From: Sulfurovum sp.
Lineage (GTDB): Bacteria; Campylobacterota; Campylobacteria; Campylobacterales; Sulfurovaceae
Direction of reading: 5' to 3'
NCBI GenBank assembly: GCA_030626265.1
Contig: DAOUPF010000026.1
Span: 1-9,552 of the forward strand
DNA: 9,552 bases
A model generated the notes under the pieces. The model did not search any database. It saw nothing but the letters and a program-made list of their open reading frames with translations, and was not told the DNA's origin. The translations under genes were made by a program, and so were the position numbers. How positions within the stretch are numbered: position 1 is the stretch's first letter; each line of letters starts with the position of its first letter. Positions 3,691-5,036 of this stretch are shown here, in pieces.

Positions 3691-5036
3691 TGATAACACT
3701 AAAAGAAGCATTGAGTAAAACTCCTGAAGAGATGGCAGATATACGAGCTGAGATAGAGCAGGTAGCTAAGTCTAGTGATCTTAATGCCTATATAGATTTT
3801 GAGAGCTCGGGTGAGGGGATACCGATACTTCTCAAAGATAATATCCAAGTCAATGGTTGGAGTGTAACAAGTGGCTCGAACATACTCCAAGGGTATGTAG
3901 CACCATATGATGCAACAGTAGTAACCAATATGAAGTCCAAAGGTTTGGCTCCTTTTGGTAGGGCAAATATGGATGAGTTTGCTATGGGTTCTACTACCGA
4001 GAGTAGCTTTTATGGAGTGACTAAAAATCCTCATGACCCTAGTAGAGTACCTGGAGGTTCATCAGGTGGCTCAGCTGCTGCGGTGGCTGCTGGTATCGCT
4101 ATAGCAGCACTAGGTTCCGATACTGGTGGTTCTGTGCGTCAGCCAGCTGCGTACTGTGGTGTGGTTGGATTCAAGCCTACTTATGGACGGGTGAGTCGTT
4201 TTGGACTTTCAGCGTATGCTTCTAGTCTAGATCAGATAGGGCCAATTACGCAAAATGTAGAAGATGCAGCTATCCTATATGATGCTATCAAAGGGCATGA
4301 CCCAAAAGACTCTACAAGTGCCCAGTTTGAGATAGAAGATATAGCAAATAATATGGATAGTGATAGAAAGCTCACCATAGCAGTCATAGATAACTACATC
4401 TCCCAAGCAGATGAGGATATCCAAAAAGCATATGCAAAGACTGTAGAAGCATTGCAAAATGCAGGGCATACTATAGTACATAAAAATATGACCAACACCA
4501 AATACGACATAGCCACATAGTATATCGTTGCCACTGCAGAGGCAGCTACTAACCTAGCTCGACTAGATGGCGTGAGATATGGAAAACGAGCTGCAGACCC
4601 TAAAAATCTAGAAGAGTTGTATTTTAACACTAGATCTGAGGGTTTCGGTGAAGAGGTCAAGAGACGGATACTTTTGGGTAACTTTGTACTCTCAAGCGGC
4701 TATTATGATGCGTATTATCTCAAAGCACAAAATGTTCGTCACTTGATTCGTAATGAATTTAATGCTATATTTGAAGAGGCGGATCTCATACTCTCTCCAG
4801 TAGCTCCTAGTGTAGCTCCAAAGATAGGAGAAATTGAGGATCCACTAGAGATGTACAAGAGTGATATGTATACTATCGCTATCAATCTAGCGGGACTACC
4901 AGCTATCTCTATACCAGTTGGTAAAAATGCTGATGGTATGCCTATAGGATTACAGCTGATAGCTAAGGCATTTGATGAGAAAGTACTTTTAGATGGTGCT
5001 TTGAGTATGGAAAAAGCAGTAAATTATACCAAGTAA
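3690..5036 (+). pseudogene. gatA: GatA, amidase subunit of the GatCAB amidotransferase, interrupted by an in-frame amber codon
   Basis: GatA releases ammonia from glutamine so that GatCAB can convert Glu-tRNA-Gln and Asp-tRNA-Asn to the correct species. The start is GTG 3690, with AGAGAGG upstream, overlapping the previous stop codon by one base. The amidase-signature core is complete: Lys49 (in ILLKDN), Ser124 (in GGSSGGSAAA) and Ser148 (in GSDTGGSVRQP). Their spacing of 75 and 24 residues agrees with the catalytic Lys-Ser-Ser triad of the family. Codon 277 is TAG, but the same frame continues with YIVATAEAATNLARLDGVRYG and ends at a TAA at 5034-5036, giving about 448 codons, a normal GatA length. 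No frameshift is present. A restart at GTG 4572 has no visible Shine-Dalgarno. It may be a sequencing error, a true nonsense mutation, or a read-through site. Confidence 0.93.
4518..4520 (+). other. In-frame TAG within gatA (codon 277)
   Basis: The context reads K-Y-D-I-A-T-[TAG]-Y-I-V-A-T-A-E-A. GatA proteins usually have a Tyr-Tyr pair here (ATYY-like), so the likely ancestral codon is TAT or TAC, one third-position change from TAG. The sequence on both sides stays in a single frame and keeps family-like residues, so only this codon is abnormal. Confidence 0.9.

Follow-up and report, generated by a model that had tools for sequence, protein, structure and literature searches.

An in-frame TAG codon in gatA of a Sulfurovum-like draft genome is probably a consensus error

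The gatA gene of an uncultured Sulfurovum-like bacterium is interrupted by a single in-frame TAG codon. As judged from sequence comparison, this codon probably reflects one wrong base in the consensus sequence of a fragmented metagenome-assembled genome, and the GatA protein of the living organism is probably full-length. This explanation is favoured because the bin contains further interrupted genes that are normally conserved, while the gatA genes of relatives are intact. The gene is located in a window of 9,552 nucleotides (the whole stretch of DNA analysed), which represents contig C376 of a draft genome with 1,984,754 bases in 489 contigs, rated 80.56% complete and 4.24% contaminated. The first-pass annotation of the window gave a fair list of options for the stop, and a sequence error was among them.

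As that annotation proposed, the locus is one gene split by one stop (Table 1). The two pieces match the NCBIfam gatA model (TIGR00132) in collinear order and without a frameshift, and the frame continues unchanged from the TAG to the terminal TAA. Neither piece reaches the model cut-off of 481.1 bits by itself (344.9 bits upstream and 223.6 bits downstream), while the locus read through the TAG, its one internal stop, passes at 586 bits. The locus therefore resembles GatA, subunit A of GatCAB, in covering positions 43 to 464 of the 466-position profile in order and in carrying the Lys-Ser-Ser set, but it differs in having an internal TAG and in lacking a piece that passes the cut-off alone. 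The open reading frame ending at the TAG spans positions 3690-4520 and encodes 276 amino acids. The Pfam amidase model (PF01425) gives one continuous match across the break, which indicates that the TAG does not fall at a domain boundary.

An alignment with Staphylococcus aureus GatA (2df4_A), which included the full-length relative P0002, places Lys49, Ser124 and Ser148 of the window's gene at positions 79, 154 and 178. We take these residues to be the catalytic set of GatA, and all three precede the stop, as had been noted from the sequence. The TAG codon aligns with tyrosine 309 of 2df4_A, which is presumably part of the glutamine site, and the counterpart of Arg358 is located in the piece downstream of the TAG. 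Because the stop falls on the residue-309 site and the Arg358 counterpart lies beyond it, the upstream piece should be inactive by itself, given these presumed residue roles. A literature search for GatCAB together with Tyr309 found no paper.

Table 1. Coordinates of the interrupted gatA gene, its neighbours in the window and other interrupted genes of the same bin
Feature	Location	Strand	Supporting evidence
gatA, GTG start to TAA stop (5034-5036), one interruption	3690..5036	+	TIGR00132 matches on both pieces; single PF01425 match spanning the stop
gatA upstream piece, 276 codons, contains Lys49, Ser124 and Ser148	3690..4517	+	TIGR00132 profile 43-294; aligned to 2df4_A
TAG in frame, replacing a tyrosine codon that is otherwise invariant	4518..4520	+	Tyr in 110/110 readable loci
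gatA downstream piece, 171 codons, frame unchanged	4521..5033	+	TIGR00132 profile 297-464; 90.1% identity to P0002
ileS, intact neighbour	802..3552	+	TIGR00392 above cut-off
guaB, intact neighbour	5046..6491	+	TIGR01302 above cut-off
eno, TAG at 16708-16710 of a 16,722-base contig	L197:16072-16722 (own C465)
ftsA, TAA at L256:622	L256:1-1095 (own C291)		Pieces match TIGR01174 103-308 and 313-371
moeA, one TAG	L199:6542-7771 (own C25)
Winged-helix AAA ATPase, one TAG	L202:1217-2947 (own C429)

Several smaller features share the window with this gene. A small hydrophobic ORF (positions 3553-3690) lies between ileS and gatA and overlaps the gatA start by one base. It terminates in TAG followed by in-frame TGA and TAA codons, and a similar ORF precedes gatA in the same-family genome G113. 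The ORF at 6507-6758 had been labelled an EF-hand gene, but it has no Pfam or NCBIfam match at an E-value of 0.001. Farther downstream (7091-7583), a 68-amino-acid small gene without a family match is followed by a gene for a ParE-family toxin (PF05016), and the pair is likely a type II toxin-antitoxin system.

Among relatives, the site of the TAG is uniformly occupied by tyrosine. Of 111 gatA loci tried, one (L016) ends before the site, and all 110 that are readable there encode Tyr, although the number of independent genomes behind them is smaller: L003 and L088 both stand for a single gene of genus-mate G001, and some named genomes may also be present among the unnamed ones. The suggestion that the stop sits at a conserved Tyr-Tyr pair is thus borne out, with the TAG on the first Tyr, and the proposed check for an in-frame TAG shared with relatives returned none in these loci. 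A gatA match is present in 127 of 150 genomes of the same family, with internal stops listed in four rows including that of the window's genome. The stops listed for G027, G061 and G113 precede the open gatA frame, and these three were rejected as further stop-bearing genes. Hence, among the 127 matches in same-family genomes, only the window's genome has a stop inside gatA. Among the best 120 of 7999 scored proteins, the truncated GatA forms a cluster of one member sequence from one contig, and P0002, which is 91% identical to it, is full length. Among named loci that contain a related gatA, the best match comes from a Sulfurovum sp. metagenome-assembled genome, with 81% identity over the upstream piece.

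Within the genus, gatA is intact in G001 and has no match in G002, G003 and G004. Gene loss in the genus was considered and rejected, since guaB is also missing in G003 and G004 and gives only a weak 19-bit match in G002. The gatA-guaB locus is probably unassembled in these three genomes, and their lack of a match was left out of the evidence. Two of these three genus-mates without a full gatA and guaB match are rated 93% complete.

An indication of error comes from other genes of the bin. Our sample of the draft genome contains 72 contigs including the window, of which 47 are readable (307,346 bases) and 25 consist of N, and it was compared with G001, for which 62 stretches totalling 920,838 bases supplied 1,109 ORFs. 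In 30,122 aligned codons of the sampled contigs, 11 stops are listed. Six were dropped because, as judged by reading, they fall at the ends of alignments or ahead of a probable start codon, and a TGA at L248:6647 was rejected as an interruption because a 700-codon open frame covers the position on the other strand. The remaining four are mid-gene stops in gatA, moeA, an AAA ATPase gene and eno, and all are TAG. The reciprocal comparison of 31,275 aligned G001 codons lists 14 stops but yields no comparable mid-gene stop: by the same kind of reading, five mark the ends of alignments, and the other nine belong to three frames with 53-55% identity. This difference of four interrupted genes versus none (P 0.058) is suggestive only. 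The comparison of the sampled contigs with the G001 ORFs revealed no frameshift-like pair.

A fifth interrupted gene, ftsA, was found by a codon-usage scan, which was used solely for this purpose, and was then confirmed by family matches; it is intact in the other four genomes of the genus. The scan, with the first start at least six codons on, does not separate the window's genome from G001 (four hits in 307 kb versus 14 in 921 kb). Candidates at L202:640 and L261:2293 were left out, as three of their four pieces were scanned and gave no family match. Both eno and ftsA are generally essential genes. In the AAA ATPase gene, an ATG occurs three codons past the TAG, yet 88% identity to a 577-residue G001 frame extends across the stop. 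The stop in eno is no more than 15 bases from the contig end and is preceded by three residue changes in the GDEGGFAP motif, which is kept by G001 and by three solved enolases. These changes and the TAG are confined to the last ~60 bases of the contig, a cluster that is hard to read as anything other than error from the alignment.

We infer that the interruptions in this bin are errors rather than mutations. Uniform single-base errors acting on the codon usage of this genome would produce TAA, TAG and TGA in fractions of 0.40, 0.36 and 0.23, with GAG as the commonest source of TAG (0.33), and the observed stop types fit this expectation. The pattern also resembles known in-frame stop errors of draft genomes in that the changes are single-base, without frameshift, restricted to one assembly and spread over several genes of one bin. 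However, some observations weigh against error. Unlike the stop in eno, the gatA TAG is positioned mid-contig with clean flanks. The implied error rate on the aligned codons, ~1 per 1000 bases, is a high one for an assembly. TAG accounts for four of the five stops (P 0.062), and the neighbouring proteins show no excess of private changes. Specifically, IleS has seven and GuaB has none at otherwise invariant columns, which is inside the range of other genomes, and by this measure the window does not seem to be full of errors overall. The ileS alignment also contains one in-frame stop in L015, from a named Helicobacteraceae metagenome-assembled genome.

Sequence conservation on the two sides of the gatA stop constrains the remaining explanations. 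Relative to G001 (NG86), dN is 0.128 and dS is 1.81 upstream of the stop, compared to 0.139 and 1.48 downstream, with dS near saturation. Identity to P0002 is 91.3% for the upstream piece and is similar beyond the stop. These similar values indicate that the stop is either very recent or not real, and they do not agree with a long-standing pseudogene tail. A recent origin, by a nonsense mutation or strain variant in part of the sampled cells, whether of a dying lineage or of one whose intact gatA is unassembled, would leave the GatA encoded here truncated and inactive. We consider this unlikely, although the mid-contig position of the TAG and its clean flanks are in keeping with it. Two private changes downstream of the stop, K348N and F434L, fall at columns that are otherwise invariant in 118 sequences and are also expected from young decay, but they would be explained equally by error. 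With the stop counted, GatA has three private changes (second highest of the 118), and the two that remain without it are equalled by four other sequences. PMC7918605 reports that bacterial genes commonly carry in-frame stops and that these are short-lived, on a par with polymorphism within populations. Against a recent mutation, several conserved genes would have to be mutant at the same time. Furthermore, the search for a second gatA, which the first-pass annotation had recommended, yields no other amidase-family gene in the assembly, a result that covers about four-fifths of the genome, with ~1/5 missing.

Alternatively, the TAG might be read through by a suppressor tRNA or by leaky termination to give enough full-length GatA, and possibly full-length products of the other TAG-interrupted genes. 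The predominance of TAG among the interruptions and the equal conservation of the downstream half are compatible with this mechanism, which we nonetheless regard as quite improbable because TAG functions as a stop. Release factor RF1 is over the cut-off and without internal stops in all five genomes of the genus, and among 85 conserved genes in the sampled contigs, 44 end in TAA, 25 in TAG and 16 in TGA. The earlier impression that TAG still works as a stop in this genome is therefore sustained. None of the 20 tRNAs of the draft genome has a CUA anticodon, but this set is incomplete (seven amino acids are without a tRNA), and such a tRNA could be absent from it. The 16 tRNAs found in 921 kb of G001 sequence do not include one with CUA either. 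The G001 codons at the four aligned sites encode Tyr in gatA and Glu in moeA, the AAA ATPase gene and eno. Thus, no one substitute residue explains the stops, and the ftsA interruption is a TAA besides. Two candidates for shared amber codons were also dismissed, that in eno on the basis of G001: one TAG each is listed for G001 and G004, and the one in G001 simply ends the gene. For prfB, stops in G002 and G003 were rejected on reading both genes: the G003 gene is open up to two stops at its end, and the frame in G002 (L209, G002:C118) is broken near the C-terminal end and resumes in another frame, an apparent frameshift. From these comparisons, global reassignment of TAG is not supported and low-level suppression is unlikely.

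The conserved in-frame stops of PMC7918605, which are proposed to be read through, resemble the gatA case in that the sequence before and after the stop is under purifying selection. However, that study counted in-frame stops only when present in at least two genomes, to exclude sequencing error, and the gatA stop is present in one. A Sulfurovum-type lineage with natural amber suppression, in which conserved genes such as gatA, eno, moeA and the AAA ATPase gene contain genuine TAG codons that are translated, with RF1 still terminating other genes at TAG, is a very doubtful proposition. Scarcely credible is a GatA made as two separate pieces that join into one enzyme. Both halves are conserved, and a GTG at position 4572 could start a piece of 154 amino acids. 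However, this first in-frame start is 17 codons beyond the stop and, unlike the start of gatA itself, it is not preceded by a AGAGAGGA-like stretch. The amidase match is also continuous across the break, and no relative examined is split at the same place.

The case for an intact enzyme depends in part on whether the organism needs GatCAB. The first-pass annotation had argued that loss of gatA would be lethal because Campylobacterota lack glutaminyl-tRNA synthetase (GlnRS). This premise does not hold, since glnS is over the cut-off in 100 of 150 genomes of the family, including genus-mates G001 and G003. In agreement, PMC3927822 reports that six of ten epsilonproteobacteria, including Sulfurovum sp., have GlnRS. 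The GlnRS of G001 (L207:11802-13976, G001:C24) ends in a C-terminal GatB/YqeY domain. The recommended searches for glnS and asnS found no glnS over the cut-off in the window's own assembly and no AsnRS over the cut-off in any of the 150 family genomes. In a control set, the AsnRS search is positive in 7 of 14 genomes. GatB (TIGR00133) is over the cut-off in all five genomes of the genus, and that of the window's genome is on contig C98. The absence of AsnRS from the 150 genomes suggests that GatCAB is required for Asn-tRNA(Asn), and the enzyme should still be needed, for asparagine. With gatA kept in 127 of these genomes, its loss would be costly. The expected need for the enzyme thus stands on grounds of asparagine rather than of GlnRS.

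If the gatA TAG is a consensus error, as we favour, the living organism would produce an ordinary full-length GatA. Together with GatB and GatC, this protein would form the tRNA-dependent amidotransferase, in which GatA, by its family membership, is predicted to be the glutamine-using subunit. Since the search gave no AsnRS, the main need for the complex would be in completing Asn-tRNA(Asn). If the TAG codons were real, a bacterium that retains RF1 would be reading TAG as sense. The favoured explanation carries a caution: when an essential gene of a fragmented bin has an in-frame stop in a single genome, the other conserved genes of that bin should be inspected before recoding or loss of the gene is put forward. 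For this family, the premise of a group without GlnRS is corrected, and asparagine is the likely reason that GatCAB is retained.
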